A stretch of 64,000 nt of DNA from Polyangium mundeleinium (lineage in GTDB: Bacteria > Myxococcota_A > Polyangia > Polyangiales > Polyangiaceae), in contig NZ_JAQNDO010000001.1 in NCBI RefSeq assembly GCF_028369105.1, forward strand, positions 11,750,501 through 11,814,500. Reading direction: 5' to 3'. The position numbers and the translations under genes are program-made. Positions 11,307 to 28,009 of this stretch are shown one piece after another. The stretch's first letter is position 1. Every line of letters starts with the position of its first letter. The notes under the pieces were generated by a model. The model saw only the letters and a list, made by a program, of their open reading frames with translations, had not been told where the DNA came from and did not search any database.

Positions 11307-12362
11307 TCACGCGCCGCCGGCGGGCGGGACGTACGGCGTCTGCGGCGAAGAAGGCTGGCTCGACGGGGGTTGCCACACGCCGGGCTTGCGCTTCGTGGGA
11401 TCGATCCCGGCCGCCTTCGCGCGCCAGCAGCCGCGGGGTACGTCTTGCCAGATGCCGTTCACCTGCACGGCTTTGAGGAGCACGCGCCGGTTGACGGGAT
11501 CGTCGACCTCGTCGCCGCGATCGACGGCCGGGCAATACTCGCCATAACCGACCGGGACGAGCCGGGTCTTCTCGACGCCGCCGGCCACGAGGGCATTCGC
11601 GATGGCCTGGGCGCGGCGCTCGGTGAGGTTCAGGTTGTAAAACTTGTCGCCCTTGCTCGACGCGTGCCCCTCGATCTCCATGCGCTGGATCTGCGGCACT
11701 TGCTTCAGCACCTTGGCGATCTCGGCGACGGTCGCCTTCGCGGCCGGGGTGAGCTCGGCCGAATCGAGCTCGAAATCGACCTTTTTCGTCTCGGGGATCA
11801 CGATCTCGTGTGAGGCCTCGTCATACGCGACCTCGCCCGCGGCCTGGTCGGGGCAACCGTCCTCGTCGCGGTAGCCATTGATCGTCTCGGGCTGGTTCGG
11901 GCATTTGTCGTTGACGTCGGCGACGCCGTCCTGATCGTGGTCGGGCGACGGGCAGCCGTCGCCCACGTTCGGCGGCAGGTTGTCCTCGGGCTGGACCGGG
12001 CACTTGTCCTTCGCATTGGCGACGCCGTCCTGGTCCTCGTCGTCCGAGGGGCAGCCGTCATCCGCCTTCGGCGGCAGGCCGTCCTCCTTCGCGTAGGGGC
12101 ATTTGTCGTCCGCGAGCAGGACGCCGTCGTTGTCGGGATCGGTCGCGGGACAGCCGTCGTTTGCCTTCGGCGGCAGGCCATCCTCGGCGTCCGCGGGGCA
12201 AGCGTCGTCGATGTCGGCGGCGCCGTCTTGGTCGGTGTCGGCCCCTCGATCGGCCTGGCCGTACATCGGGCGCGGCGCATAACCGCCGCCGCACGCGGCG
12301 GGCAGGAGCGAGAGGACGAGGGCGAGGAGGGGGCTACGAGCGAAGGTCTTTCGAGGAAGCAT
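11307..12362 (-). CDS. OmpA-family lipoprotein with thrombospondin type-3 repeats
   Basis: A 351-residue outer-membrane lipoprotein. Signal peptide ends LPAACGGG. Residues ~40-170 hold five calcium-binding TSP type-3-like repeats of the DxDxDGxxD form (DTDQDGAADIDDACP, DPDNDGVLLADDKCP, DEDQDGVANAKDKCP, DHDQDGVADVNDKCP). Residues ~190-310 are an OmpA C-terminal peptidoglycan-binding domain (VDFELDSAELTP, IEGHASSKGD, LNLTERRAQAI). The Pro/Ser-rich tail is unusual. The protein probably ties the outer membrane to the cell wall. The only gap to the next upstream gene is 65 nt. Confidence 0.93.
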   Translation of the reverse strand: MLPRKTFARSPLLALVLSLLPAACGGGYAPRPMYGQADRGADTDQDGAADIDDACPADAEDGLPPKANDGCPATDPDNDGVLLADDKCPYAKEDGLPPKADDGCPSDDEDQDGVANAKDKCPVQPEDNLPPNVGDGCPSPDHDQDGVADVNDKCPNQPETINGYRDEDGCPDQAAGEVAYDEASHEIVIPETKKVDFELDSAELTPAAKATVAEIAKVLKQVPQIQRMEIEGHASSKGDKFYNLNLTERRAQAIANALVAGGVEKTRLVPVGYGEYCPAVDRGDEVDDPVNRRVLLKAVQVNGIWQDVPRGCWRAKAAGIDPTKRKPGVWQPPSSQPSSPQTPYVPPAGGA

Positions 12363-12427
12363 GACGCGACGGCGGCGGAGCCTAGCCGTCCTGGGCGCCG
12401 TTGGGAAGTAAAGAGCCTCGGTGACGT

Positions 12428-13186
12428 TCAGTTACATACGTTGCCGCAGCTCATCGAGGCACACTGGTTGAGCTGCTGCGCCTGGTTTGCGCCGCCCGCG
12501 TGCTGCTGGAGGCACGCCTGCTGGCAGGACATGTTGCCCTGCGGACAGGCTCGGACGCAGTCGATGAACGCCGGGCACGCGGGGTTGCCGATGCAGGCCT
12601 CGAACTGCGGCTCGCATTGCTGGGCGAGGCAGAGCTCGCAGGCGCCGATCATCCCCGCGCCGGGGCACGAGGGCGCGCAGAGCGTGCTCGCGCAGTTCGA
12701 CGTGACCACGAACTCTGCAAAGCCGAGCGAGCTTTTCTGATAACAGGATTGCGCGCACGCCTCGTCCATCGCCGGACACGCCTGCAGGCAGGGGATGATT
12801 CCGAGGCAGGACGCCTCCGCAGCGCAGTCGCAGTACGCGACGTTGCACTGCTGAAACATACACGCCGCGCAGCCGTCCGGCGGCTGCATACATGCCGGGC
12901 CGCCGCCACCCGCGCCGCCCATGCCGCCGCCCATACCACCATCGCCGCCGGCCCCGCCCATCCCGCCCATCCCGCCCATCCCGCCCATCCCGCCCATCCC
13001 GCCCATCCCGCCCACGCCGCCGTCGCCTCCGGCCCCGCCGGATCCAGCCGTCCCCGTGCTGCCCGTGAACGTGCCGCTCGTCGTGTCGGAGATGTCGCTC
13101 CCGCATCCGCCGAGGACGAACGGAAGCCCAACCATTCCCACGCCCAAGAGAAGAAGCGAAAAGGTCCTGTTCATGGTTGATCGCAT
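12428..13186 (-). CDS. Cys-rich lipoprotein with GGM-repeat linker
   Basis: A 252-residue predicted lipoprotein. The signal peptide ends in VLGGCGSD. A Gly/Thr/Ala linker contains six consecutive GGM triplets, encoded by an almost perfect 9-bp tandem repeat. The C-terminal ~150 residues carry about 26 cysteines in repeated CxxC/CxxxC patterns (CAACMFQQC, CPAFIDCVRACP), likely disulfide-bonded. GGGAGG six bases before ATG 13186 supports the start. Similar Cys-rich lipoproteins are common in Polyangiales genomes but uncharacterised. The 9-bp repeat makes the linker length prone to slippage. Confidence 0.8.
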   Translation of the reverse strand: MRSTMNRTFSLLLLGVGMVGLPFVLGGCGSDISDTTSGTFTGSTGTAGSGGAGGDGGVGGMGGMGGMGGMGGMGGMGGAGGDGGMGGGMGGAGGGGPACMQPPDGCAACMFQQCNVAYCDCAAEASCLGIIPCLQACPAMDEACAQSCYQKSSLGFAEFVVTSNCASTLCAPSCPGAGMIGACELCLAQQCEPQFEACIGNPACPAFIDCVRACPQGNMSCQQACLQQHAGGANQAQQLNQCASMSCGNVCN

Positions 13187-13314
13187 AACATACCTCCCGA
13201 GAGCGTGAGATCTCCGGAAAGGCACCTGGGTAAAAACATCGTGACAAATCGCACACACGGGCCGAGCACCAACCGGCGCTTGCCATCGGGGCCGAAAGTG
13301 GGGAGGCTTCGAGC

Positions 13315-14448
13315 GTGATGGGACCCGACGATCGCGACGTCGTTGCCGAGCCTTCCGAGAGCGCACCCCTCGTGCCGGCCGAGGCCTTGCTCGCGCCGCC
13401 CCGGGCGAAGGTGCGGGCCTCGGTGGCGCGCCTTCTGGGCCACTGGTTCGTCGTGGCGACATCAAACGAGCTCGGGGATCGGCCGATCGCGCGGACCCTG
13501 CTCGGCGTGCCGCTCGTGCTCTTCCGCGACGGCGAGGGCAAGCCCGGCGCGCTGCTCGACCGCTGCCCGCACCGGAACGTGCCGCTCTCGATCGGCGAGG
13601 TCGTGGAGGGGCAGCTCCAGTGCTCGTACCACGGCTGGCGTTTCGACCGCGGGGGCACGTGCAAGTTCGTCCCGTCGCTCGTCGGCGACGCTGCGGCGAA
13701 GGCGCGCAACGCGCCGAGCTACGCGGCGCGGGAGCAAGACGGGTTCGTGTGGGTCTACGGGGCGCCGAACGAGACGCCGAAGACCGAGCCGTATCGTTTC
13801 CCCGCGCTCGGCGCGGGCTACACGTCGGTGCGGCGGCGGGTGGAGTCCGAGAGCACGATGCACGCGGCGCTGGAGAACGCGCTCGACGTGCCGCACACGC
13901 AGTACCTGCACAGTGGCCTGTTTCGATCGAAGCCGCGGGGCATCGAGATCGAGGCGCGCGTGAAGCGCACGCACGACCGCGTGGTGGCCGAGTACGTAGG
14001 CGAGCCGCGCCCGACGGGCCTCGTGGCCCGGATCCTCTCGCCGTCGGGCGGCGAGGTAACGCATTTCGATCGGTTCATCCTGCCCTCGATCGCGGAGGTC
14101 GAGTACAAGATTGGCACGGAAAACCATTTTTTGGTCTCGGCCGCGATGACGCCGGTGACGGACTTCCTGACGCACATCTACGCGGTGGTGAGCTTCAGGG
14201 TGCGGCTGTTCCCGGGCTGGCTGCTCAAGCCGTTCTTGCTGCCGCTCGGCCTCAAGGTGTTCGCGCAGGACGCGGCGCTGTTGAAGCTGCAGACGGAGAA
14301 CATCCAGCGGTTCGGGGGCGAGCAATACGCGTCGACGGAGATCGACGTGCTCGGGCGGCACATCTGGCGGCTCATGCGGAAGGCCGAGCGGGGGGATGTG
14401 TCGACGGGCGAAAATGTTCATGAAGAAACGGTGAAACTCCTGGTATAG
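13315..14448 (+). CDS. Rieske non-heme iron oxygenase
   Basis: A 377-residue oxygenase component. The Rieske [2Fe-2S] site is CPHRNVPLS ... CSYHGWRF (CxH-x17-CxxH) near residues 83-105. The catalytic iron site is ENALDVPHTQYLH near residue 192. The layout resembles the chlorophyllide-a oxygenase/pheophorbide oxygenase/vanillate demethylase group of single-component-like Rieske proteins. The substrate cannot be told from sequence. GTG 13315 lies 8 nt and ATG 13318 11 nt after GGGAGG; GTG is given. No reductase or ferredoxin gene is adjacent. Confidence 0.9.
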   Translation: MMGPDDRDVVAEPSESAPLVPAEALLAPPRAKVRASVARLLGHWFVVATSNELGDRPIARTLLGVPLVLFRDGEGKPGALLDRCPHRNVPLSIGEVVEGQLQCSYHGWRFDRGGTCKFVPSLVGDAAAKARNAPSYAAREQDGFVWVYGAPNETPKTEPYRFPALGAGYTSVRRRVESESTMHAALENALDVPHTQYLHSGLFRSKPRGIEIEARVKRTHDRVVAEYVGEPRPTGLVARILSPSGGEVTHFDRFILPSIAEVEYKIGTENHFLVSAAMTPVTDFLTHIYAVVSFRVRLFPGWLLKPFLLPLGLKVFAQDAALLKLQTENIQRFGGEQYASTEIDVLGRHIWRLMRKAERGDVSTGENVHEETVKLLV

Positions 14449-14537
14449 CCAGGTGAAACCTGTTCCAGAAGGTAAAACCGGGGATCTTCCCCCGTCGGAC
14501 GGCGCGTGGTAGGGCGATGGGCAAGGAGGAGCCGCAC

Positions 14538-14650
14538 ATGGGAGAGGCCGCTCGCAAGCTCGTCACGTTCACCGAGTACGCTGGCGTCGATCGGCTGCAA
14601 GCTCGACCTGGACGAAGTCTACCGCAACCCCCCTGGAAGAAAGCGCGTAA
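14538..14650 (+). pseudogene. Internally deleted Uma2-family gene remnant
   Basis: ATG 14538, preceded by AAGGAGGA, encodes MGEAARKLVTFTEYA, which looks like the N-terminus of a Uma2-type (PD-(D/E)XK-like) protein. Within the next bases the reading switches to another frame encoding LASIGCKLDLDEVYRNP, which looks like the C-terminal end of the same family. The ~500 bp that should lie between, including the nuclease core, are missing. The junction falls at about 14580-14586. This reads as a deletion scar, not a working gene. Confidence 0.6.
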
Positions 14651-14653
14651 GGC

Positions 14654-16219
14654 TCACTCCGCCGCAGCGGGCTCCGCATCCTCCGCGCCGAGGTGCATGC
14701 GGCGCTCCACCTCGGCATACTTCGCCTCAGCTTCCGGCTCCGGGAAGAGCAGGCTCACCACGATTCCCACGACGAACGAGAGTGGCACCGTGATGATGCC
14801 CGGGTTCTTCAGGGACAGCATCGCCGTGGGGTTCTTGAGCAGGTCCACCTGAATGGTCGGCGACATCCAGATGAGCACGAGCGCGCTCACGACGCCCGCC
14901 ACGATCGCGCTCACGGCGCCCCGCGTCGTGAACTTCCTCCACGTGATCGACAGGAGCAAGACCGGGAAATTCGAGCTCGCCGCGACGGCGAACGCGAGGC
15001 CGACCATGAATGCGACATTCTGACCCTTGAAGAGCAGGCCGAGGCCCATCGCGACCAGCGCGAGAACGATCGTCGCGACACGCGCCACCTTGAGCTGCTC
15101 CTTTTCGTCCGCCTGCCCGTGCCGGATCACGCCGACCCACAGGTCGTGCGCCAGCGCCGCCGCGCCCGAGAGCGTCAAGCCAGCCACGACCGCGAGAATG
15201 GTCGCGAACGCCACGGCCGAGATGAACCCGAGGAACGGACGGCCGCCCACGGCCTCGGCGAGCAGGAGCGCGGCCATATTGCCCCCCTTGTCGACCGAGG
15301 TAATGGCCGAACGCCCGACGTGCACGCTCGCGCCGAAGCCGAGGATGAACGTGACGAGGTAAAAGAAGCCGATGAAGCCCGTCGCATAAAAGACGGAGGA
15401 GCGCGCGGCCTTCGCGTCGGGCACCGTGTAAAAGCGCATCAGGATGTGCGGCAGGCCGGCCGTGCCGAACATGAGCGCGAGGCCCAGCGAGACGGCTTCG
15501 AGCGGGCTCGACACGAGCTTGCCCGGCGCGAGGACCTCCGGGCCATAGGTCTCGGCCGCCTTCGCGAAGAGCGCGAGCGGGTTCATCCCGAAAGGAACGA
15601 GCGAGAGGAGCGCGAGCAACGTCGCCCCGCCGAGCAAAAGCACCGCCTTGACGATCTGCACCCACGTCGTCGCGATCATGCCGCCGAAGAGCACGTAGAG
15701 CAGCATGACCGTGCCCACGATGAGCAGCGCGGTCTCGTATTGCAGGCCGAACATCATCTTGATGAGGTTGCCCGCGCCGACCATCTGCGCGATGAGATAA
15801 AAGCAGATCACCGTGAGCCCGCCGATCGCGGCGGCGATACGGACGGGCTTTTTCTTCAGGCGATACGCCACCACGTCGGCGAACGTGTACTTGCCGAGGT
15901 TGCGCAGCGGCTCGGCGATCAGGAACGTCACCACGGGCCAGCCGACGAGCCAGCCGACCGAATAGATGAGGCCGTCGAAGCCGCTCGTCGCCACGAGGCC
16001 CGCGATGCCGAGGAAGCTCGCCGCGCTCATGTAATCGCCGGCGAGCGCGAATCCATTCTGCAAGCCGCTCACGTTGCCGCCGGCCGCGAAGAACTCGCTC
16101 GTCGTCTTCGTCTTCCGCGCGGCCCAGCCCGTGATGGCGAGCGTCGCCGAGATGAAGACCAGGAAAAACGCGATCGCCGTGCCGCTCGTCGCGCCGAGCG
16201 AGGTCTGTACGCCGTTCAT
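14654..16219 (-). CDS. actP: Cation/acetate symporter, SSS family
   Basis: A 521-residue polytopic sodium:solute symporter with ~13 TM helices. SEFFAAGGNVSGLQNGFA and GDYMSAASFLGIAG are characteristic of ActP-type acetate permeases, as is the long LPHILMRFYTVPDAKAARSS segment. It imports acetate for activation by the acs product. Its start overlaps the DUF485 stop by ATGA, the same arrangement as yjcH-actP in Escherichia coli. It is the last gene of the porin-acs-DUF485-actP operon. No terminator is obvious before the Uma2 remnant. Confidence 0.95.
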   Translation of the reverse strand: MNGVQTSLGATSGTAIAFFLVFISATLAITGWAARKTKTTSEFFAAGGNVSGLQNGFALAGDYMSAASFLGIAGLVATSGFDGLIYSVGWLVGWPVVTFLIAEPLRNLGKYTFADVVAYRLKKKPVRIAAAIGGLTVICFYLIAQMVGAGNLIKMMFGLQYETALLIVGTVMLLYVLFGGMIATTWVQIVKAVLLLGGATLLALLSLVPFGMNPLALFAKAAETYGPEVLAPGKLVSSPLEAVSLGLALMFGTAGLPHILMRFYTVPDAKAARSSVFYATGFIGFFYLVTFILGFGASVHVGRSAITSVDKGGNMAALLLAEAVGGRPFLGFISAVAFATILAVVAGLTLSGAAALAHDLWVGVIRHGQADEKEQLKVARVATIVLALVAMGLGLLFKGQNVAFMVGLAFAVAASSNFPVLLLSITWRKFTTRGAVSAIVAGVVSALVLIWMSPTIQVDLLKNPTAMLSLKNPGIITVPLSFVVGIVVSLLFPEPEAEAKYAEVERRMHLGAEDAEPAAAE

Positions 16220-16506
16220 GTACCGCCCCCGCTCTTCGACTTGCCGGCGAGGCGCTCGACGTGGACGTCGTAATGCCGGTTCGCCCAGGAGACATAGATG
16301 CCCGTGAACACCCAGGACAGGACGATCACGAGGGAGCCGAGCAGCATGCCGAGGCTCAAGCCATTCGTGAGGAGATTGCCGAGCAGGGGTTTGCCCCAGG
16401 CCACGAGCAGGATGAAGCCGAAATAGGCGAACATCGTGGCCGCGGTCAGCACGCGCGCGATGCGGTCGCGCGCCGCGGCGACCCGGCGAAGATCCTTCTC
16501 GTTCAT
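16216..16506 (-). CDS. yjcH: DUF485 membrane protein (YjcH family)
   Basis: A 96-residue inner-membrane protein with two TM helices (FAYFGFILLVAWGKPLLG and MLLGSLVIVLSWVFTGIYV) and a C-terminal YVSWANRHYD, the family signature. It is regularly encoded between acs and actP, and may assist the permease. ATGA overlaps join it to acs upstream and actP downstream, so the three products are translationally coupled. Confidence 0.93.
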   Translation of the reverse strand: MNEKDLRRVAAARDRIARVLTAATMFAYFGFILLVAWGKPLLGNLLTNGLSLGMLLGSLVIVLSWVFTGIYVSWANRHYDVHVERLAGKSKSGGGT

Positions 16507-18473
16507 GCCCTCACCTCGGCGCTCAGCGTACGCGATTTCGCCGCGCCCTCGACGGTTTTTTCGAGCAGTTCGTCCAGAAGGGTCGGATCGGCGAGCGTGG
16601 TCGTATCCCCGAGGTTCTCGGTCTCTCCGCAGGCGATCTTGCGCAAGATGCGGCGCATGATCTTGCCCGAGCGTGTCTTCGGCAAGCCCGACACGATCCG
16701 GAATCCGTCCGGCGTGGCAATCGGGCCGATCGCGTGGCGGACCTGCTCTTTCAGCGCGCCCTGGAGTTCGATCTCGCTGCGGTACGAGACGCCGGACCGC
16801 AGGACGACATACGCGAAGATGCCCGTGCCCTTGATGGCGTGTGGAATGCCCACGACGGCGGCCTCGGCGATGGCGTCGTGCTCGGCGAGCGCGCTCTCGA
16901 CCTCGGCGGTGCCGAGCCGGTGGCCGGAGACATTGAGCACGTCGTCCACGCGCCCCGTGACCCAGATGTCGCCGTCCTCGTCGCGCACACACCCGTCGCC
17001 CGTGAAATACAGGCCCGGGAAACGCGCATAATAGGTCTCGCGGAAGCGGCGGTGGTCACCGTAGAGCGTGCGGGCCTGGCCGGGCCAGGAGCGCTTGACG
17101 CAGAGGTTGCCGCTGACGCCGTTTTTATCGAGGATGTGCCCCTGCTCGTCGAGGACGGCGAGCTCCACGCCGAAGAAGGGTTTCGTGGCGGACCCCGGCT
17201 TGGTCGGCGTCACGAAGGGCAGCGGCGTGACGAGGACGCCGCCCGTCTCGGTTTGCCAGAACGTATCGACGACGGCGGCGCGGCCCTTGCCGACCTGATC
17301 GTGATACCAGCGCCAGGCCTCCGGGTTGATGGGCTCGCCGGCCGAGGCGAGGACACGCAGCGTGTCGCGGCTCGAGGTTTCGAGATACGTATCCCCCGCG
17401 GCCATGAGCGAGCGCAGCGCGGTCGGCGCTGTGTAGAGCTGCGTGGCCTTCAGATCGTCGACGATCTGCCAGATGCGGCTCGCGTCGGGATCATTGGGCA
17501 GCGCCTCCAGGAGCACCGTCGTCGTGCCGTTCACGAGCGGGCCGTACACCACGTAACTATGGCCCGTGATCCAGCCGAGATCGGCCGTGCAGAAATGGAC
17601 GTCGTCCGGGCGCAGGTCGAAGACGACGGCATGCGTCAGGGCCGCATACACGAGGTATCCGCCGGTCGTGTGCAGGACGCCCTTGGGTTTCCCGGTGGAG
17701 CCGGACGTGTAGAGGATGAAGAGCGGATCCTCGGCGGCCATCCATTCGACGGGGCACGTCGACCGATGCTTGTCCATGACCTCGTCGAGGAAATGGTCGC
17801 GGCCCGCGTGCATGGGCACCTGCGTGTCCGTGCGGCGCGCGACGAGGACCGTGTGGACGAGCGAGAGCCCCTCGACCGCGTCGTCGACGATGTGCTTCAG
17901 CGGAATGCGCTTCGGGCCGCGGAGCGCCTCGTTCGCCGTGAGGACGACCTCGCAGCCGGCGTCGAGGATCCGCTCGCGCAGGCTCTCCGCCGAGAAGCCG
18001 GCGAAGACGACGGAATGCACGGCGCCGATCCGCGCGCAGGCGAGCATCGCGTAGACGAGCTCGGGGATCATCGGCATGTAGAGACACACGCGGTCGCCCT
18101 TGTGCACGCCGAACGATTTGAGGACGTTCGCGAGCCGGCAGACCTCGTGCTTGAGCTTGCGGAAGGAGATACGCTCGTACTCGCCGGGCTCGTTTTTCGC
18201 CCACACGAGCGCGGTCTTGTTCGGCCGGTGGGCCGCGTGCCGGTCGACGGCATTGAAGCAGGCATTGAGGCGCCCGCCCGAGTACCAGGCGACGTCCGCG
18301 CTCTCGGGGTCGACGTCCACGGTGCTGTGGGGCGGGTAAAACCAGGAGAGGGCGCGGGCGCGCTCCGACCAGAAGACCTCGGGGTCCTCCAGGCTCTGCC
18401 GATAGAGGGTCTCGTAGTCCTCCATCGAGCGGATCTTCGGGTGGTAGGCGAGCGGTTCGTCTGCGAATTTCAT
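16503..18473 (-). CDS. acs: Acetyl-CoA synthetase (AMP-forming)
   Basis: A 656-residue full-length enzyme converting acetate, ATP and CoA to acetyl-CoA via acetyl-AMP. Visible motifs: YTSGSTGKPKGV (P-loop), WQTETGG, YFTGDGCVRDEDG and the C-terminal GLPKTRSGKIMRR whose second Lys (near residue 604) is the residue acetylated in this family to switch the enzyme off. It lies 37 nt after the porin gene and overlaps DUF485 by ATGA. The operon is predicted to be driven by the sigma-54 promoter upstream of the porin. Confidence 0.97.
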   Translation of the reverse strand: MKFADEPLAYHPKIRSMEDYETLYRQSLEDPEVFWSERARALSWFYPPHSTVDVDPESADVAWYSGGRLNACFNAVDRHAAHRPNKTALVWAKNEPGEYERISFRKLKHEVCRLANVLKSFGVHKGDRVCLYMPMIPELVYAMLACARIGAVHSVVFAGFSAESLRERILDAGCEVVLTANEALRGPKRIPLKHIVDDAVEGLSLVHTVLVARRTDTQVPMHAGRDHFLDEVMDKHRSTCPVEWMAAEDPLFILYTSGSTGKPKGVLHTTGGYLVYAALTHAVVFDLRPDDVHFCTADLGWITGHSYVVYGPLVNGTTTVLLEALPNDPDASRIWQIVDDLKATQLYTAPTALRSLMAAGDTYLETSSRDTLRVLASAGEPINPEAWRWYHDQVGKGRAAVVDTFWQTETGGVLVTPLPFVTPTKPGSATKPFFGVELAVLDEQGHILDKNGVSGNLCVKRSWPGQARTLYGDHRRFRETYYARFPGLYFTGDGCVRDEDGDIWVTGRVDDVLNVSGHRLGTAEVESALAEHDAIAEAAVVGIPHAIKGTGIFAYVVLRSGVSYRSEIELQGALKEQVRHAIGPIATPDGFRIVSGLPKTRSGKIMRRILRKIACGETENLGDTTTLADPTLLDELLEKTVEGAAKSRTLSAEVRA

Positions 18474-18510
18474 GTTCTTCCTCCCATGCTCCGACAGCGG
18501 CGCGCCTTCC

Positions 18511-19848
18511 TCAGAAGAACACCTGCGCCTGCATCGTGACTTCGTTCTTGCGATCCGTTTCGATCGGTTTGCCCTCGGGCCGCGCCGAGAACACCGGGCG
18601 ACTGCGGTAATTCAGCGTGAGCTTGCCGTGGTGCCCGACGACGAACCAGTTGAGCCCGACGTCGGGCACGAGCACGGCATCGTCGAGGCCCTCGAAGTGC
18701 CCGCGGCGCACCGCGACATAAGGCTGGAGCTGCCCCGCGCGGCCCATGTCGGGGAACAAGAACCCCGCGTGCCCGTAGATCTGCATGCCCGTGCCGACCG
18801 TGGGCACCGCGTTGCCCGGACCATTGAATGATCCAGGCGCGCCTGCGGCGAGCGCCGTCGAGGGGGTCAAGATGCCGATGTTCCGCACGTAATTCGGTCC
18901 GAAATCGGAGAGGACGAGGCCCGCATACGCCGTGACGGCCGTGCCCTTCCAGCCCGTGGGCAGGTCGAGGAACGTGTCCACACCGAACATCCGCGTATCG
19001 GCCTTCCGCTTGTCGCCGCCGTCGAGGTACGCCATCGAATCGGGGTGCCAATAAACCCCCGCGCCGAGGTTCAGGACCTTCTTCTTGCCGAGGTATGTGC
19101 CGACGTAATAAGGCAGCGAGTTCGACTCCGGTTCGAGGAAATCGAACTTTAAATACCCCTGCACGGCGGGCATGTTCGCGTTCGGGTCGTAGTCGGCCGT
19201 CCTCTCCTTGGGCTCCCCCGCGACGGCGAAGGGATGGTTCACGGCGGCCCGGTATTCGAGGCGATTCCAGAGGATGCCCTTCACGTACACGCCGAGCTGA
19301 CGCGCGAACTGATCGGACTTGTCGATCGTCGGCCAGTTGTGAATGGGCGCGTCGATCGTCATCGAGTTGATCGTGCTCGCGCTCGCGAGACGGGACACGC
19401 CGTTCCAGTAATGAAGGCCCACCCCGACCGCGAGCGCGTCCCCGGCGATCCGGTACTCGCCCCACAGGTCGTGCAAAAAGAGCTGCGGCTTCTTCGGCGT
19501 GTCGCCCGCGCCGAACCCGCCCCCGACGGTGCTCTGGTTGTTGATGCCGAAATGCGCCAGGATCGTCAGGTCCTTGGAGAGCTGGCCGTGCAGGAGCAGC
19601 CGCGAGCGGCGAATGCCGATGTCGGCGCTCGCGTCCTGGGGCGCGCCGCGGACGAGCGAATCGGGGTTGTGCTCGTTGTAGCGTATCCAGATCTGGTGCC
19701 ACGTGAGGATGCGGAAGTACTGTTTTCCGTCCTTCGAGAGCTCGATCTTCACGCCCTTGTCGATCGACGGATCGTATTCGGCCCGCGCCACGCCCGCCGT
19801 CATCGCGAGCGCGAACATCGCCACCGTCGCCGTGAGACACCTCTTCAT
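18511..19848 (-). CDS. Outer-membrane porin of the acetate operon
   Basis: A 445-residue protein with a Sec signal peptide cut after GVARA, followed by beta-strand-rich sequence with alternating aromatic residues and a C-terminal QAQVFF ending in Phe, typical of 16-18-strand porins. The N-terminal body (YFRILTWHQIWIRYNE) resembles phosphate-selective-type porins. Its position at the head of the acs-actP operon suggests that it passes acetate or other small acids. ATG 19848 follows GGGGG by six nt. The ~100-nt leader runs from the sigma-54 promoter at 19960-19974. Confidence 0.85.
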   Translation of the reverse strand: MKRCLTATVAMFALAMTAGVARAEYDPSIDKGVKIELSKDGKQYFRILTWHQIWIRYNEHNPDSLVRGAPQDASADIGIRRSRLLLHGQLSKDLTILAHFGINNQSTVGGGFGAGDTPKKPQLFLHDLWGEYRIAGDALAVGVGLHYWNGVSRLASASTINSMTIDAPIHNWPTIDKSDQFARQLGVYVKGILWNRLEYRAAVNHPFAVAGEPKERTADYDPNANMPAVQGYLKFDFLEPESNSLPYYVGTYLGKKKVLNLGAGVYWHPDSMAYLDGGDKRKADTRMFGVDTFLDLPTGWKGTAVTAYAGLVLSDFGPNYVRNIGILTPSTALAAGAPGSFNGPGNAVPTVGTGMQIYGHAGFLFPDMGRAGQLQPYVAVRRGHFEGLDDAVLVPDVGLNWFVVGHHGKLTLNYRSRPVFSARPEGKPIETDRKNEVTMQAQVFF

Positions 19849-19959
19849 GGACGACCCCCAAAGCCGCGCCGGCGCTCCGGCACGCGGGAAAAAACGGGGA
19901 ACGGGGGGACCGAGGTACGCCGGGTCGGGCACGTCCCCGTTCGCCGGGAAAACCGGATT

Positions 19960-19974
19960 GCAATGCGCGTACCA
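19960..19974 (-). promoter_or_regulatory. Sigma-54 (-24/-12) promoter for porin-acs-actP
   Basis: On the minus strand the sequence reads TGGTACGCGCATTGC. This fits the RpoN consensus TGGCAC-N5-TTGC with one mismatch and with the invariant GG and GC correctly spaced. Transcription would start near 19948 and leave a ~100-nt leader. An NtrC-family activator is encoded divergently at 23305-24648. Confidence 0.8.
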
Positions 19975-20022
19975 GGCGCGGAACGCGGGCGCGCGCCGCG
20001 GCAAAACCGCATCGCGTGGTGT

Positions 20023-20056
20023 TTCGTAACGAAGCCGCGTTTCCTTTCGTAACGAA
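20023..20056. promoter_or_regulatory. Two perfect palindromes, likely enhancer sites of the NtrC-type regulator
   Basis: TTCGTAACGAA occurs at 20023-20033 and again at 20046-20056, each a perfect 11-bp dyad, with centres 23 bp apart (about two helical turns). They lie 50-80 bp upstream of the sigma-54 promoter, where dimers of a bacterial enhancer-binding protein would bind. The same sites lie ~60 bp before the divergent regulatory genes, so autoregulation is possible. Confidence 0.7.
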
Positions 20057-20117
20057 CGCGGTGCGTCAGCACACTCCGCGCGCGCCAAGGGCCCCGGGGA
20101 TCTGGTAACGTCGCCGC

Positions 20118-20324
20118 GTGGGCATCCCTCCGCGCGCCTCCGCCGCCGAGATCTCCCTCGTCCTGCTCGGATGTGGGGCCTTCGTCGCCGTGTCGCCGCT
20201 GCGCCTCGCGTGGGCGCACCCGGGGCGCACGTGGCTCGCGCCGTTCCTCGTGTGGGCCCTGCTCATCGCGCTTTCGGCGCTCGCGGCGCGGGGCGAGCGC
20301 GGCGGCCGTGGCTCCGGACCATGA
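20118..20324 (+). CDS. Small membrane protein coupled to the CbrA-like kinase (CbrX-like)
   Basis: A 68-residue protein starting at GTG 20118 with two hydrophobic segments (ISLVLLGCGAFVAVS and LAPFLVWALLIALSALA). Its TGA overlaps the sensor-kinase ATG as ATGA. In Pseudomonas a small membrane ORF, cbrX, precedes cbrA and is translationally coupled to it; the arrangement here is the same, although sequence homology was not tested. Hydrophobicity and coupling support a real gene. No strong ribosome site is seen upstream. Confidence 0.65.
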   Translation: MGIPPRASAAEISLVLLGCGAFVAVSPLRLAWAHPGRTWLAPFLVWALLIALSALAARGERGGRGSGP

Positions 20325-23304
20325 CGCTCGCGGCCTCCACCCTCTCGCTCGTCGCGCTCGGCTACCTCGCGCTTTTGTTTTTGCTCGCGCACCTCGCCGA
20401 GCGGGAGACCATTCCACGACGCTTCACGGGCAGCCCGCTCGTGTATTCGCTCTCGCTCGGCGTGTATGCCACGTCGTGGACCTATTTCGGCGGCGTGGGC
20501 TTCGCCGGCAGCCACGGCCTCACGTTCCTCGCGGTGTGCCTCGGGCCGACGCTCGCCTGCATCGCCGCCCCGCTCGTCTGGCAGCCCATCCTGCGGCTCT
20601 CACGCGATCAGCAGCTCACCTCGCTCGCGGACCTCTTCGCGTTTCGGTATCGCGGGCGCCGCGTGGGCGTGTTCGTCACGCTGCTCGCGCTCGTCGCCAG
20701 CGTCCCGTACATCGCGCAGCAGATTCACGCCGTCGTCGACAGCGCACGTGCCCTCGCCCCCACGGCCTCGCCGGCCGCGCTCGGGCTCGGGTTTTCCGCG
20801 CTGCTCACCACGTTCACCGTGCTCTTCGGCGCGCGGCACCTCACGGCGCGCGAGCGGCATGGAGGGCTCGCGCTCGCCGTCGCATTCGAATCGGTCGTGA
20901 AGCTCGTCGCGCTCGTCGCGGTCGGCGCCGCGGCGCTCTTCGGCGTGCACGGCGGGGTCGGGGGGCTCGAAGCGTATCTCGCGACCCACCCCGAGGTCAC
21001 CGAGCGGCTCGCGGCGCCCGTGCGCGAGGGAACGGGCTATTCGTCCCTGATCCTCCTCTCGTTCGGCGCCGCATTCCTCCTGCCGCGGCAATACCACGTC
21101 GCATTCGCCGAGGGCGCGGAGGAGCGCTCGCTCCGGTTCGCGGCCGTCGCGTTCCCCGTGTTCCTCTTGCTCCTCAACCTGCCCGTCTTGCCCATTCTGT
21201 GGGCGGGCCAGCGCCTCGGGCTCGACGCCTCGCCGGACGTATACGTGCTCGCCGTACCCGCGGCGCTCGGGTCGACGAAGCTCCCCCTGCTCGCGTTCCT
21301 CGGCGGCGTCTCCGCGGCGAGCGCGATGGTGATCGTCACGACGATTGCCCTCGCCGGCATGTGCGTCAATTACTTCGTCTTGCCGGTTCGCCTCGACAAG
21401 CTCGGCGAGGACCCGTACCGGCGCCTGCTCTGGCTGCGCCGCGCGCTGGTCGCGGCCATCATCTTCGCAGGGTATGGGTTTTATCGGGTCCAGGAGCGCG
21501 GCGGGCTGCTCGTCGAGACAGGCCTCGTGTCGTTCGTCGCATTCGCGCAGTTCCTCCCGGGCCTGCTCGGCGTCCTGTTCTGGAAACGCGCCACGCGGGC
21601 CGGATTTCTGAGCGGGCTCGGCGCCGGGTCGCTCGTGTGGGTGGCGGCGGCGCTCTTGCCTTTGCTCTCGCGCACCGGGGTGTTGCCGGCGGATCTCGGC
21701 GCGCGGGCGCTCTTCGGCGCGGACCTCGGGGATAGCTGGACCTTGCCCACGGTGCTCTCGCTCTCGGTGAACGTGGCGCTCTTCGGCGGCGTGTCGCTGC
21801 GCGGCGGGCAATCCCCCGAGGAGGCCGAGGCGGCGCGCATCTGCGCGCGGGAGGCGATCGTCGTGGGGCCGCCCGCGACGCCGTGGGGCTCGGCGTCCGA
21901 GCTCGAATGGACCCTCGCGCGCAAGGTGGGCGCCGCCGTCGCCGAGGCCGAGATCACGCGGGCCCTCGGCGAGCTCGGTCTTTCGCGGGAAGGGCTCGGC
22001 CGCGCGGATTTGCGCCGCCTCGGCGATCAGGTCGAGCGCAACCTCTCGGGCCTGTTCGGGCCGATCCTCGCGCGGCTGCTCGTGCATCCGGCCGATCGCG
22101 GCGAGGGCGACGACGCCGCGCTCGCCGATCAGCTCCGCTTCCTCGACGAACGCCTCAATCGGCCCGCCCTCGGGCTCACCGGAATCGCGGCCGAGCTCGA
22201 TCTTTTGCGGCGTTATTTGCGCACGGTCCTCGACGAGCTGCCCATCGGCGTCTGCGCCCTCGGCCCACGCCGCGACGTCATTCTGTGGAACCGCGCGCTC
22301 GCCCGCACGACCGGCCTCGCGCCGGAGGTCGCCTCGGGCTTGCCCCTCGAACGGCTCCCCGATCCCTTCGGGCCCCTCCTCTCCTCGTTCGCCGACGACG
22401 CGGCGCGCGCGGAGGCCGACGTGGACCTCGACGACGGCCGGCGGCGCCTCGCCGTGCGGCTGCACAAGGCCTCGCTCGATGCCGAAGGCGCAGGAGAAAC
22501 AGGCGCGCCGTTTGGCCTCGTGCTCCTCCTGGAGGACCGCACGGAGCGCGCGGCGCTCGAAGCGCAGCTCGTGCATCGGGATCGCCTCGCCTCGGTCGGT
22601 CGGCTCGCGGCCGGCGTCGCGCACGAAATCGGCAATCCGCTGACCGGCATCACCTGCCTCGCGCAAAACCTCGCGGAAGAGCCGGACGCGGCCGAGGCGC
22701 GGGCGCGGGCGCGGCTCATCCTGGAGCAGGCGGGGCGCATCGACGCGATCGTCCGATCACTCCTCGGCTACAGCCATGCGGGCGCGAGCGCCGTGGAGCC
22801 AGGGCCGGAGGGCGCATTCGCCCGCGTCCCGCTCGCGCCGGTCGTCGATCAGGCCATCGCGCTCGTGCGCCTCGACCGGACGGGCAAGCGAATCCAGATG
22901 GAAAACGTCTGTCCCGACGACCTCGCCGTCCACGCCGACCGGCAACGCCTGACGCAGATCCTCATCAATCTGCTGACGAATGCTTGTGACGCGTCGCAGG
23001 AGGAAGGCAGCGTGTTCATCGACGCAGCGCGACAGGACTCGTCGGTGGTGCTGCGCGTCATCGACGCGGGGACAGGCATTCCGGAGGAGGTGAAAGCGCG
23101 GATGTTCGACCCCTTTTTCACGACGAAGCCACGCGGCGAAGGCACGGGGCTCGGGCTCGCCGTCGTGGAGAGCATCGCGCGGGAGCACGGCGGCGCGGTG
23201 TGGGTCGAGAGCGAGGAGGGCGTGGGGACCACGGTGCACGTGCGGCTTCCGCTCGCGCCCCGTCTGGGCGAGGATGCGCCTTCCGCGTTTGGCGGGACGA
23301 CCTG

Positions 23305-23305
<1 letters not shown>
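20321..23305 (+). CDS. CbrA/CrbS-like sensor histidine kinase with SLC5 transporter domain
   Basis: A 994-residue membrane kinase. Residues ~1-500 form a 12-13-TM sodium/solute symporter-like module (SWTYFGGVGFAGSHGL; LPRQYHVAFAEG). A cytoplasmic linker and a PAS-like domain (~640-750) follow. The transmitter has H-box GVAHEIGNPLTG with phospho-His near residue 768, N-box NLLTNACDA, G1 DAGTGIPEE and G2 GTGLGLAV. This order is that of CbrA (carbon use) and CrbS/MxtR (acetate switch) kinases. Its neighbour genes for acetate uptake support acetate or flux sensing. Its stop overlaps the response-regulator start as TGATG. Confidence 0.93.
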
Positions 23306-24648
<1,343 letters not shown>

Positions 24649-24656
24649 GAGCCGCG

Positions 24657-24687
24657 TTGACAATCGGGGTGCCGTACGCGAGCATAT
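24657..24687 (+). promoter_or_regulatory. Possible sigma-70-type promoter of the RCC1-like gene
   Basis: A perfect -35 box TTGACA at 24657-24662 is followed after 19 nt by GCATAT (24682-24687). The spacing is long, so this is tentative. It lies in the short gap before the lipoprotein gene at 24722. Confidence 0.35.
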
Positions 24688-24721
24688 CGGCGCAAGCTTT
24701 CGATAGCCTCCGAGGTCCATC

Positions 24722-26083
24722 ATGCGAAATGCTCTCTCCGTCAGCGCCCTCGTCGTCGGCCTCGTCGTCCTGGCCGCGTGCACGCCGGAGCCACGCAATT
24801 ACGGCGCGGGCGGCGGCGGGTCCGGCGGTGGGCCGGGCGGCGGCGGGTCCGGCGGGGACAACCCGGGCTGCGCGCCCGGGACCGCCAGTTGCGACGACAT
24901 GCCGGGGTGCGAGACGAGCACCACGGACGATCCCAAGAACTGCGGCGGTTGCGGCATCGTTTGCGCGCGTTCGTGTGTCCTCGGAGTGTGCGACGATCCG
25001 CGCCACGTGACCGCGGGCTACCATCAGACGTGCGTGCGCACGGAGATCGGCGATGTGTATTGCTGGGGCCGCAACGCGTCGGGGGAGCTCGGGCTCGGCG
25101 TCGATGTCATGGCCGCCGCGCCGGCGAAGGTGGCCCTCGCGACGAACGCCGTCGACGTCGACGCAGGCGGAGGCCTCTTCAAGGATGCGGCCGGCGCAGA
25201 GCAGATCGCCGCGCACACGTGCGCGGTCCTCAAGGACACCACGGTCCAATGCTGGGGCGCGAACGGAACGGGACAACTCGGCATTGGCGCGATGGGATGG
25301 CGGGACACGCCGACGACCGTCATCAGCCTCGTCGGCGCTGTGTCCGTAAGCGCGGGCGGGCGGCATACGTGCGCCGTGACGAACAAGAACGAGCTCTACT
25401 GCTGGGGCGCGAACGATCGGGGGCAGATTGGCATCGGAATGGCGAGCCCCGAGGTCAATACGCCGACGAAGGTGCCGCTCGACGGCGTGCGCCAGGTATC
25501 GGCCGGAAACGAGCATACGTGCGCCGTCCTGATGGACGACACGCTCTATTGCTGGGGCGGTGATGGGCTGATGGGCCCCCTCGGCCTCGGGGGCGGCGAC
25601 GACCAACCCTCGCCGAAGGTCGTGAGCTTGACGGGCGTGGATCGCGTCTCGTCCGGCTCCACGCATACCTGCGCCTTGAAGGGCGGGCAGCAATACTGCT
25701 GGGGCAATGGGTACCAGGGTCAGCTCGGCATCGAGAACGAGTTCACGTGGCGCACGACGCCCACGGACCCCTCCGCGGTCCCGAAGCCGATCTTCGTATC
25801 GGCGGCCTTCAACCACACGGCGAGCATCTCCGGCGAGGGCGGCCAGCCCTACGTGACGGGCGTCAACGTGCCGCTCGGCAATGGCACGACCGACACCACC
25901 TATGTCCCCCTGCCCGTGGAGCTCTTCAACGCCACCGAGATCGCCGGAGGGCGGCTCCACACCTGCGTGATCACGGGGACGGGGGGCGTCTTCTGCTGGG
26001 GTGACAACGAGTTCGGCCAGACCGGCGCGGGGACGCCCGCCCCGGAGGACGTTCTCGTTCCTACCTCCGTCGCCTTTCCCTGA
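24722..26083 (+). CDS. RCC1-repeat lipoprotein
   Basis: A 453-residue predicted lipoprotein: signal peptide ends VVLAACTP, a Gly-rich linker follows, then a Cys-rich stretch (CDDMPGCETSTTDDPKNCGGC) common in myxobacterial surface proteins. Residues ~100-453 contain about seven RCC1/BNR-like blades with the recurring words HTCAV, YCWG.N and GQLG, which should fold as a beta-propeller. In eukaryotes RCC1 is a Ran exchange factor, but bacterial surface versions are not known to do that; binding of proteins or glycans is more likely. It is a single gene between the regulator and the VWA gene. Confidence 0.88.
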   Translation: MRNALSVSALVVGLVVLAACTPEPRNYGAGGGGSGGGPGGGGSGGDNPGCAPGTASCDDMPGCETSTTDDPKNCGGCGIVCARSCVLGVCDDPRHVTAGYHQTCVRTEIGDVYCWGRNASGELGLGVDVMAAAPAKVALATNAVDVDAGGGLFKDAAGAEQIAAHTCAVLKDTTVQCWGANGTGQLGIGAMGWRDTPTTVISLVGAVSVSAGGRHTCAVTNKNELYCWGANDRGQIGIGMASPEVNTPTKVPLDGVRQVSAGNEHTCAVLMDDTLYCWGGDGLMGPLGLGGGDDQPSPKVVSLTGVDRVSSGSTHTCALKGGQQYCWGNGYQGQLGIENEFTWRTTPTDPSAVPKPIFVSAAFNHTASISGEGGQPYVTGVNVPLGNGTTDTTYVPLPVELFNATEIAGGRLHTCVITGTGGVFCWGDNEFGQTGAGTPAPEDVLVPTSVAFP

Positions 26084-26170
26084 CGGATCCTGATTTTCCG
26101 CCCTGGTCGCCTTGTGATAGGTCTCTAGGCCGCGCGGGCGGCCACTTCGGGCGTCCAGAGGGGAAACTCC

Positions 26171-28009
26171 GTGAAAGCGACTTACGCATTGAGCAAGCCG
26201 ACGATCGTCGTCGGTGAGTCCACCAAGGTATCGCTCGTCGTCCGCTTCGGGGCAGAGGGGAAGAAGGAAGACGCGCCGAGGCGGAAGCTGAACCTCAGCC
26301 TCGTCCTCGATCGCTCCGGCTCGATGGGCGGCACGCCGCTGCGCCAAGCCATCAAGGCCGCGCAGGCGCTCGTCGGCGAGATGAAGGAGGACGATCGGGT
26401 GAGCGTCGTCATCTTCGACGACAGCCCCGACACGATCGTCGATCCGGTGCTCGCCAAGGACAAGAAGGGCATCCAGGACAAGATCGGCAAGGCGCGCGCC
26501 GGCGGCTGCACGAACCTCTCGGGCGGCTGGCTCGAAGGCGTCAAGCACGTGAAGAAGCACGCGAAAAAGGACGAGGTGAACCGCGTCCTGCTCCTCACGG
26601 ACGGCCAGGCGAACATGGGGATCACCGATCCCGACGTGCTGAAGAAGACGTCCGGCGAGAAGGCGGGCGAGGGCGTCGTGACGACGACGCTCGGCTTCGG
26701 CTCGGGCTTCAACGAGGACCTGCTCATCGGCATGGCCCGCGAGGCCGAGGGCAACTTCTATTTCATCGAGTCGCCCGAGGACGTCGAGCAGGTCTTCAAG
26801 ATCGAGCTCGAAGGTTTGTCCTCCGTGATCGGACAGAACCTCGTGGTGAGCGTGCGACCCGACGAGATCGTCGAGCACGGCTGGGTGCTGAACAAGTACC
26901 GCATCCAGGAGAAGGGCAACGAGCTCGAGGTGACGCTCGGCGACGTGTACGCCGTGGAAGACAAGGTCCTCGCGCTCGAGCTCGAGGTGAAGCCGACGAA
27001 GGCCGGGCCGGTGAAGGTCGCGTCGGTTCAGTTCCAGTACCAGACGGTGGTGGACGGCTCGATCAAGGACGGGTCGGGCGAGTTCGTGGTGACGGTGAAC
27101 GCGGGCACGGCCGAAGAAGCGGCCGCGGCGGCGCAGGACATCAACGTCATCGGCGAGGCGCGGCGCCTGGAGACGGCGAAGCTCAAGGACGAGGCGGTCG
27201 ACCTCGCGGACAAGGGCGACCTCAAGAACGCGGCGCAGAAGCTGCGGAAGATGGCCGAGGATCTCCGCAACAGCCCGCTCGCGAACCAGTTCGCGTTCGC
27301 CGAGGAGATCGAGCAGCTCGAACACTTCGCCGACCGGCTGGAGAAGCGGTCGTACGACGGCGTGCTCCGCAAGGAGCTGCGCGATCAGTCCTACCAGGCC
27401 GGGGCGCGGAGCCGCGGCGACCTCGCGCAGCGCGGCACGACCGGCGGCAGCGCAGCGGGTTTGGCCACGGTCACGAGCGCGGACGGCGGCGTCGTGGTGC
27501 GCTGCGAGAAGGAGGGCGGCAAGCTCCGGATCAAGGTGATCTCGGACGGCTTCGATTCGTCGAAGAACGTGCAGTTCCCGCGCGCGATCCGGCAGGAGGG
27601 CGTGACGTACCTCGTCGAGAACGTGGTGGGGAGCAACGACGGGAGCTTCTACCGCGCGGCTGGCTGGATCAAGCGGCTGCTCCGGCCGGGCGAGACCGTG
27701 AGCGTGAGCTCCGGCGGGTCGAGCCGGCGCTCGTCGGGGTCGTCCTCGAAGGCGGCGAAGACGCCGGCGACGGCGGCGGATCTGCCGACGTGCACGGAGA
27801 TCGGCGACGGCGTGCTCGTGCAATGCGTGCCCGAGGGCAAGAAGCTCCGGGCGCGCGTGGTGTCGGACGGGTTCAACCCGAACTACAACATCCGCTTCCC
27901 GCGCAGCATCCGCGAGCTCGGCGTGCTCTACGTCTGCGACGAGGTCGTCGAGGCCTCGGGCGGCGGCTCGTACGTCGCGGGCGGCGAGATCAAGCGGCTG
28001 ATTCAGTAA
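26171..28009 (+). CDS. VWA-domain protein with duplicated C-terminal domain
   Basis: A 612-residue cytoplasmic-looking protein from GTG 26171. Residues ~1-300 resemble an N-terminal beta region plus a von Willebrand A domain with a complete MIDAS (DRSGSMGG, later TNLSGG and LLTDGQAN). A helical coiled-coil-like region (~320-410) follows. Two related ~65-residue domains end the protein: KLRIKVISDGFDSSKNVQFP and KLRARVVSDGFNPNYNIRFP, each ending ..IKRL. They are joined by a Ser/Gly-rich linker. MIDAS-type metal-dependent protein binding is likely. The duplicated domain was not recognised as a named family. Confidence 0.88.
   Translation: MKATYALSKPTIVVGESTKVSLVVRFGAEGKKEDAPRRKLNLSLVLDRSGSMGGTPLRQAIKAAQALVGEMKEDDRVSVVIFDDSPDTIVDPVLAKDKKGIQDKIGKARAGGCTNLSGGWLEGVKHVKKHAKKDEVNRVLLLTDGQANMGITDPDVLKKTSGEKAGEGVVTTTLGFGSGFNEDLLIGMAREAEGNFYFIESPEDVEQVFKIELEGLSSVIGQNLVVSVRPDEIVEHGWVLNKYRIQEKGNELEVTLGDVYAVEDKVLALELEVKPTKAGPVKVASVQFQYQTVVDGSIKDGSGEFVVTVNAGTAEEAAAAAQDINVIGEARRLETAKLKDEAVDLADKGDLKNAAQKLRKMAEDLRNSPLANQFAFAEEIEQLEHFADRLEKRSYDGVLRKELRDQSYQAGARSRGDLAQRGTTGGSAAGLATVTSADGGVVVRCEKEGGKLRIKVISDGFDSSKNVQFPRAIRQEGVTYLVENVVGSNDGSFYRAAGWIKRLLRPGETVSVSSGGSSRRSSGSSSKAAKTPATAADLPTCTEIGDGVLVQCVPEGKKLRARVVSDGFNPNYNIRFPRSIRELGVLYVCDEVVEASGGGSYVAGGEIKRLIQ

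Follow-up and report, generated by a model that had tools for sequence, protein, structure and literature searches.

In a 64,000-nucleotide stretch of the Polyangium mundeleinium genome, hereafter called the window, an operon for acetate uptake and activation lies back to back with genes for a two-component system that resembles CbrAB of Pseudomonas. A preliminary description of the window proposed that the gap between the two gene groups holds an enhancer-dependent sigma-54 switch through which a CbrB-type regulator would control acs. The locus therefore raises the question of whether the divergent regulator acts directly on the acetate operon, and of what other reading might account for the same elements.

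An acetate operon divergent from a cbrXAB-like module

The first gene of the operon, on the minus strand, encodes a porin-like outer-membrane protein (18511–19848). Its sequence has a signal-peptide-like start and a C-terminal F, there is no Pfam match, and the NCBIfam porin_ExtI match (E = 4.7e-16) reaches 58.6 bits, which is less than the cut-off of 150. The following gene, acs (16503–18473), encodes an acetyl-CoA synthetase that scores 918 bits as an NCBIfam AcsA equivalog (cut-off 725), and it is a second copy, with a paralogue of roughly 48% identity elsewhere in the genome. A gene for a DUF485 small membrane protein comes next (16216–16506; Pfam DUF485 E = 1.8e-21 in the frame 16216–16560, with the start at 16506 taken from the translation), and the last gene encodes an actP-like cation/acetate symporter (14654–16219) with a strong Pfam SSF match (E = 7.7e-105) and 703.7 bits for the NCBIfam ActP subfamily, under the cut-off of 750. 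Because the ends of the DUF485 gene overlap both acs and actP by a few bases, these three genes are taken to form a single operon.

On the plus strand, the gene nearest to the gap (20118–20324) encodes a cbrX-like small protein of 68 amino acids with two hydrophobic stretches, and its stop codon overlaps the ATG of the kinase gene (20321). The preliminary description correctly placed a promoter and dyads in the gap between the operon and the CbrAB-like genes but overlooked this small gene; once it is counted, the intergenic gap is 19849–20117. Position and size fit the small two-helix CbrX protein that overlaps the kinase start, whereas the sequence match is weak (best PDB match 10ed_X, CbrX, E = 0.012). 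Relatives have a comparable small gene at this position. A loose screen for small overlapping frames ahead of the kinase was positive at all 93 loci (93 of 93); of the 40 frames listed, at least three are plainly wrong (loci L042, L054 and L057), and most share a W-rich two-helix pattern.

The second gene (20321–23305) encodes a CbrA-like SLC5-STAC histidine kinase with Pfam HisKA and HATPase_c domains. Residues 4–588 align to 10ed_A, the SLC5-STAC portion of CbrA (E = 4.6e-129), from the entry for the P. putida CbrXA SLC5-STAC structure (PMC13022988). Pfam gave no match to a receiver domain in this kinase and no match to SSF at a threshold of 0.001, and a candidate PAS domain before the kinase core scores 20.2 bits against a cut-off of 22.6.

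The third gene (23305–24648) encodes a CbrB-like NtrC-type response regulator, identified by its Pfam Response_reg and Sigma54_activat domains, by alignment and by tree. The claim that the divergent genes encode an NtrC-type regulator with GAFTGA was borne out by its receiver, sigma-54 activator and helix-turn-helix parts. The last of these, a Fis-type HTH_8 domain, scores 20.6 bits, slightly under the Pfam cut-off of 22, and the helix is clear in the alignment. This DNA-reading helix is nearly unchanged from Polyangium to Pseudomonas, with the sequence GISRKTLWERRQRMG in the window and GISRKCLWERRQRLG in locus L111. The order of the regulatory operon is that of a cbrX-cbrA-cbrB-like module.

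A quick tree of 91 regulators places 88 of them in one clade (SH-aLRT 100), set against three paralogues of one kind, and Pseudomonas CbrB falls inside this clade together with the window regulator. In the same tree, 22 rows from Myxococcota, including that of the window, group together (95), and the long-branched row from genome G033 lies outside this group.

The sensor pocket was compared by mapping residues by hand from the alignment of the window kinase with 10ed_A. Four of the nine named CbrA residues differ (S53>T51, A56>T54, Y75>C73 and F248>S247), and F248 is found in 5 of 99 kinases, four of which are from pseudomonads. Reading the sensed compound from the pocket letters was rejected, given that acs-adjacent loci and other loci share most of them. 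As judged from this alignment, the pocket residues set Pseudomonas apart and are no marker of acetate.

A predicted sigma-54 promoter and candidate regulator half-sites in the divergent gap

A predicted −24/−12 promoter with the sequence TGGTACGCGCATTGCA, which departs from TGGCACNNNNNTTGCW at one position, occupies 19959–19974 on the minus strand and faces the porin-acs-DUF485-actP operon. It had been reported in the preliminary description with the right letters and coordinates. It stands 111–126 bp before the porin start codon, whose first base is 19848, and the transcription start predicted from it, at about 19949, agrees with the position 19948 suggested earlier. The GG and GC elements are at the right spacing, activator-type half-sites are located upstream, and rpoN is present in the genome; a sigma-54 gene was found in all five genomes searched, including this one.

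Farther upstream, the 11-bp palindrome TTCGTAACGAA occurs at 20023–20033 and again at 20046–20056, 23 bp apart. The earlier proposal of two dyads was accurate in position and letters, but the palindrome did not hold up as the conserved unit. It is broken in G004 (TTCGTAACGAT) and in G036 (TTCGTAACGAG and TTGGTAACGCT), with GTAACG intact, and GTAACG is kept at eight of eight sites across four genomes. The comparison points to the half-site GTTAC/GTAAC, not to the 11-bp TTCGTAACGAA, as the conserved operator unit.

Read in this manner, the gap contains a promoter-proximal GTAAC half-site (20026–20030, plus strand), which lies 56 bp upstream of the −24 element and inside the first of the two dyads described earlier, and a distal imperfect dyad (20039–20053, plus strand). 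The GTAAC half-site of the distal dyad, at 20049–20053, is 23 bp from the proximal half-site and 79 bp from the −24 element. On the operon strand the distal dyad reads GTTAC-GAAAG-GAAAC (20053–20039), one mismatch from GTTAC-N5-GTAAC, and is followed 23 bp on by GTTACGAAACACC. The exact GTTAC-N5-GTAAC is absent from the window, which has the one-mismatch version and single half-sites instead. A third GTAAC (20105–20109, plus strand) lies 8 bp before the start codon of the cbrX-like gene and is a possible autoregulation site or promoter part. The distal dyad is identical in three congeneric genomes. The −24/−12 site is unchanged in G003, which carries the same kinase at 97%, and has one spacer change in G004.

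The 13.25-Mb genome contains the exact 11-mer TTCGTAACGAA four times, including both copies in this gap, compared with five copies of a reversed control pattern. Similarly, GTAACG-N15–19-GTAACG occurs four times genome-wide, once here, and its reversed control 18 times. GTAACG pairs are therefore not enriched genome-wide, and their weight comes from place and conservation, not from rarity. Sigma-54 look-alikes with two mismatches or fewer are about as frequent across the window as chance predicts (18 observed, 16.0 expected). Among 88 regions upstream of kinases, a site with at most one mismatch that faces away from the kinase occurs once, in a set that includes the window, against a shuffle mean of 0.7. 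Taken alone, the sigma-54 site of the window is only mildly unusual and not beyond chance in the comparison set; the weight of the case lies in the combination of elements and in its recurrence in relatives.

Half-sites and promoters recur beside related regulators

Published CbrB sites have the form TGTTAC-N12–14-GTAACA-N15–19-GTAACA (PMC8871633), and the subsites have been called non-palindromic and 20–25 bp apart (PMC6296734). In our comparison set, the 81 regions behind regulator genes contain 119 GTTAC/GTAAC cores (shuffle mean 38.8), and the 88 regions before kinases contain 128 (shuffle mean 47.4). The exact GTTAC-N5-GTAAC dyad is found in 18 of the 81 and 31 of the 88 regions, respectively, against shuffle means of 0.00 and 0.02, and same-strand cores 23 bp apart are found before kinases in 8 of the 88 regions, the window among them. 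This distribution suggests that relatives use the half-site both as GTTAC-N5-GTAAC dyads and as repeats 22–23 bp apart. Across 1.67 Mb there are 63 such dyads; 51 are no more than 700 bp from the start of a kinase gene or the end of a regulator gene, and several of the remaining 12 are just behind a Sorangium kinase. The base flanking the dyad is T in 78% and C in 18% of cases (50 dyads).

Sigma-54 sites follow the same pattern behind regulator genes. Forward sites with at most one mismatch are present in 14 of 81 regions (shuffle mean 0.5, maximum 3), and all 14 have a GTTAC/GTAAC core 30–200 bp upstream (shuffle 0.08). When two mismatches are allowed, 30 regions carry a forward site (shuffle mean 3.6, maximum 8) and 27 carry a site with a core upstream (shuffle mean 0.38, maximum 2), four of these 27 being pseudomonads, which act as positive controls, and several others being close relatives. 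The backward orientation gives a site in one of the 81 regions and a site with a core in none. Before kinases (88 regions), six site-and-core combinations are found in each direction, with shuffle means of 0.94 and 0.61, and the window and G033 are among those facing away from the kinase.

Genome G036 provides a rearranged version of the locus. Its kinase and regulator genes are on the same strand upstream of porin-acs, not divergent from them, and the operator-promoter arrangement is still found before porin-acs. The counterpart −24/−12 site is TGGCCCCGGGCTTGCT, and the operon strand reads GTTAC-CAAAG-GTAGC in the distal place, followed 23 bp on by GTTACGAAACACC. The cores are 110 and 87 bp from the −24 element, compared with 79 and 56 bp in the window, and the difference, 31 bp for both cores, is close to three helix turns.

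Half-sites and a site with at most two mismatches also lie between the regulator and porin or acs in G283, G075 and four genomes of family f5. The gene order of G283 is regulator-porin-acs-DUF485-actP on one strand, and its cores, like those of the four f5 genomes, are at 59–94. G075 has the order regulator-porin-like-acs-DUF485-actP, with TGGCCCACGCCTTGCG and cores at 101, 91, 69 and 47. At G033 (locus L010) there is one half-site and only a two-mismatch promoter; locus L043 has only one sigma-54 site, with three mismatches; L047 has half-sites and no sigma-54 site with three mismatches or fewer; and at L110, L113 and L115, where acs is beside the kinase, the half-site is absent from the region read.

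Distribution of the family and its association with acs

CbrAB-type proteins occur in Myxococcota and in Gammaproteobacteria beyond Pseudomonas and Azotobacter. When named genomes were scanned with the kinase alignment, the best 80 of 532 related stretches were kept, and a class search at E ≤ 1e-130 detected the kinase in 21 of 289 genomes. Eleven of the 21 have an acs of 59% identity or more in the adjacent cluster, a tally in which G263 and G272 were judged from the matching public contigs L083 and L060.

Among 95 loci picked without regard to acs, 27 from Gammaproteobacteria and Myxococcota (window included) have acs within 2.3 kb of the kinase or regulator and 12 have it 3.3–7.9 kb away, whereas none was seen in the other 56, many of which are short contigs; several counted loci are close relatives, and the counts are not independent events. 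Within the 27, the acs of L173 and L175 is only 39% identical to that of the window, and L110, L113 and L115 go with a divergent regulator or with none within the threshold. At L043, an acs-like gene behind the regulator falls below the threshold of this count.

In several Gammaproteobacteria, a sodium:solute symporter gene follows the half-sites and promoter behind the regulator (L042, L046, L050, L055, L059, L099 and L109). Four of eight proteins encoded in this slot score above the VC_2705 cut-off, three match the SSS superfamily below its cut-off, and one has no match at 1e-30. In pseudomonads, crcZ fills the same slot. Specifically, in three of the six sources scanned (L108, L112 and L114) the regulator gene is directly followed by an Rfam match to CrcZ, and this position identifies them as genuine CbrAB loci; the sequence of L111 ends soon after the regulator.

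Other layouts were also seen. Kinase and regulator are 72 kb apart in the Sorangium-like genome G023 (L030 and L031), and at the Sorangium-like locus L066 three GTTACCGATCGTAAC repeats spaced about 72 bp apart come after the kinase. Genomes G245 and G257 have two kinase-regulator copies each (L160–L163), one of which is followed by an MFS-like transporter gene with a GTAACG half-site before it. At the family f5 loci L170, L171, L172 and L174, a second acyl-CoA synthetase gene (38–40% identical) lies directly upstream of the kinase, in addition to the acs behind the regulator.

Congeners and the search for further targets

Genome G005 is without the 8-kb block that corresponds to window positions 16561–24637, a span that runs from acs through the porin gene, the promoter and the cbrX-like gene to the kinase gene and almost the entire regulator gene; DUF485-actP (93%) and the far flank (87%) are retained. 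The rest of the G005 genome yielded no close kinase or regulator and no acs of the window type, and the kinase, regulator and actP are absent from G001 and G002 at the thresholds used. Another acs, of 47–50% identity, is present in all 11 genomes searched, and the window copy is therefore dispensable and, presumably, separately controlled. The gene that follows the module (24722–26083), at the edge of the block missing from G005, encodes a secreted-looking protein with RCC1-like repeats, as judged by eye.

A genome-wide search for the motif upstream of −24/−12 promoters, which the preliminary description had suggested as a way to define the regulon, turned up no convincing second target. There is no sigma-54 site with at most two mismatches in 3 kb at the two further places of exact TTCGTAACGAA, or at the only exact GTTAC-N5-GTAAC of the genome (G000:C1:8805498). 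One of the three further GTAACG pairs (L120, G000:C1:8625004-8625033) carries three GTAAC spaced at 12-bp intervals, and a perfect −24/−12 site, TGGCACGCCCATTGCT, stands more than 100 bp away before a 128-aa frame. No matching region was detected in five congeners or in G036, save weak 42–44-bp matches in two, and as a second target L120 (G000:C1:8625004) may be regarded as a weak lead.

Proposed mechanism and alternative readings

The comparison provides the parts of the switch, their order, spacing and conservation, and a statistical link between the regulator family, the half-sites and sigma-54 promoters. An enhancer-dependent sigma-54 switch under a CbrB-type regulator, as originally put forward, is supported by the domains, the CbrB clade, the sigma-54 gene and the recurrence in other genera, G036 included, and this switch is very probably real. 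We consider it likely, with good confidence, that the porin-acs-DUF485-actP operon is switched on directly by the divergent CbrB-like regulator through sigma-54. In this mechanism, the SLC5-STAC kinase and its small partner would sense acetate, a related carboxylate or low carbon, and, as its domains predict, the kinase would phosphorylate the NtrC-type regulator. The regulator would bind the half-sites at 20026–20030 and 20039–20053, as suggested by the recurrence of these sites and the conserved DNA-reading helix, and its GAFTGA ATPase would remodel the sigma-54 polymerase held at 19959–19974, leading to a start near 19949. A cbrXAB-type module would in this way be wired straight to acetate uptake and activation, and not to the CrcZ small RNA.

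The alternative that survives best keeps this activation and adds a second role, wherein the same half-site cluster would activate porin-acs through sigma-54 while repressing or tuning the divergent cbrXAB genes. The location of the half-sites between both divergent genes is consistent with such a dual function, as is the frequency of dyads near the kinase start in the family, but no clear −35/−10 has been established on the cbrX side, and we entertain this reading only tentatively.

GTTAC dyads or triplets are found beside the cbrX start in many Gammaproteobacteria (L085, L098, L100, L101, L104 and others), an arrangement suggesting that the system may also regulate itself. At the five named loci, which are divergent, half-sites lie by the cbrX start and no site with at most two mismatches faces acs; these half-sites look autoregulatory, and the same could hold in part for the window. 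If it held in full, the half-sites would serve the cbrX-kinase-regulator operon, and the −24/−12 look-alike would be due to chance or secondary. The dyads counted upstream of kinases (31 of 88 regions), some of them beside a cbrX start that has no outward-facing sigma-54 site, and the third GTAAC of the window, next to the cbrX-like start, are what such a model would predict. However, the half-site pair stays with the porin-acs promoter in the rearranged G036, and no GTAAC precedes the G036 cbrX-like gene in the stretch printed. Furthermore, the sites of G283, G075 and family f5 are far from the kinase start, between the regulator and acs or porin, and the −24/−12 site of the window points towards the operon and is conserved in both G003 and G004. 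Autoregulation as the whole explanation is consequently unlikely.

It is still less probable that another NtrC-type regulator works these sites while the neighbouring kinase and regulator act elsewhere. The genome does offer 295 response-regulator candidates at first look, and a congeneric paralogue is 47–48% identical, but congeners either have or lack the acs-porin-promoter-cbrXAB block as a whole, and the GTTAC link is specific to CbrAB-type loci. Finally, although each element alone is near chance level, a chance origin of the half-sites and promoter look-alike in a G+C-rich genome is very improbable, because other genera, and Gammaproteobacteria as well, show the same order, spacing and orientation at counts that far exceed those of shuffles.

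Relation to known systems

Pseudomonas and Azotobacter have been named as the exclusive hosts of CbrAB (PMC8871633). The system described in this way is found here, with its small partner gene, half-sites and a sigma-54 promoter, in Myxococcota and many Gammaproteobacteria, and a good share of these loci adjoin genes for acetate uptake and activation. These observations offer a readable operator for the whole family, a guess at the compound sensed and a plausible route from a local switch to the top of Pseudomonas catabolite repression. CbrAB might have originated as a dedicated carboxylate switch beside genes for acs and ActP/VC_2705-type symporters, which it would have driven directly through sigma-54 and GTTAC dyads. 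In Pseudomonas, the slot behind cbrB would then have passed to CrcZ and the pocket to histidine, turning a local switch into the head of global carbon catabolite control. We offer this scenario as a conjecture that has somewhat less than an even chance of being right.

CbrAB of Pseudomonas and Azotobacter shares with the window a cbrX gene overlapping the kinase start, an SLC5-STAC kinase, an NtrC-type sigma-54 activator whose DNA-reading helix is almost identical, GTTAC/GTAAC subsites spaced by about 23 bp and a sigma-54 target promoter (PMC8871633, PMC6296734 and PMC13022988). The adjacent target is crcZ in those bacteria, whereas in the window it is porin-acs-DUF485-actP; the histidine-pocket residues differ; and the published arrangement begins with TGTTAC-N12–14-GTAACA, whereas N5-spaced dyads are found across the wider family. 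No CrcZ-like RNA was matched by Rfam beside the regulator (window 12000–28000), which weakens any claim that the Pseudomonas network operates here but not the kinship of the proteins. Hfq was not found in any of five genomes searched; the control search detected it in 5 of 14 named genomes. The signal to which CbrA responds is still described as elusive (PMC13022988).

Acetate has been connected with CbrAB before. Mutants of A. vinelandii in cbrA and cbrB fare worst on acetate (PMC12811062), and in P. aeruginosa both acetate growth and the expression of acsA require CbrB, which acts by way of CrcZ and Crc (PMC3480352). That route is indirect, with CrcZ counteracting Crc at a CA motif of the acsA mRNA (PMC3480352), whereas the window apparently has a direct promoter. 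Within the literature searched, mostly outside subscription journals, there was no report of direct sigma-54 control of acs by a CbrAB-type system or of CbrAB in Myxococcota.

CrbS/CrbR (MxtR/ErdR) of Vibrio and Pseudomonas likewise joins an SLC5-STAC kinase to acs as a target (PMC5715377, PMC5436829 and PMC9100948), a link that for the window is drawn from sequence. CrbS is a hybrid kinase and CrbR is LuxR-type, in contrast to the window kinase without a receiver match and its NtrC-type partner, and membership in CrbSR was rejected on these domains. The preliminary description had presented CbrB-type control of acs as a variation on CrbSR. It was right that the regulator is NtrC-type and not LuxR-type, but a CbrAB–acs link had already been published for Pseudomonas, via CrcZ and Crc (PMC3480352). 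RpuS/RpuR of Sinorhizobium also combines an SLC5-STAC kinase with a carboxylate symporter as target, and differs from the window in its LuxR-type regulator and its response to pyruvate (PMC9100948). Set against these systems, the CbrAB–acs link in Pseudomonas is known, and what appears to be new is the apparently direct promoter wiring, the operator of the family and a spread beyond the range given in the literature.
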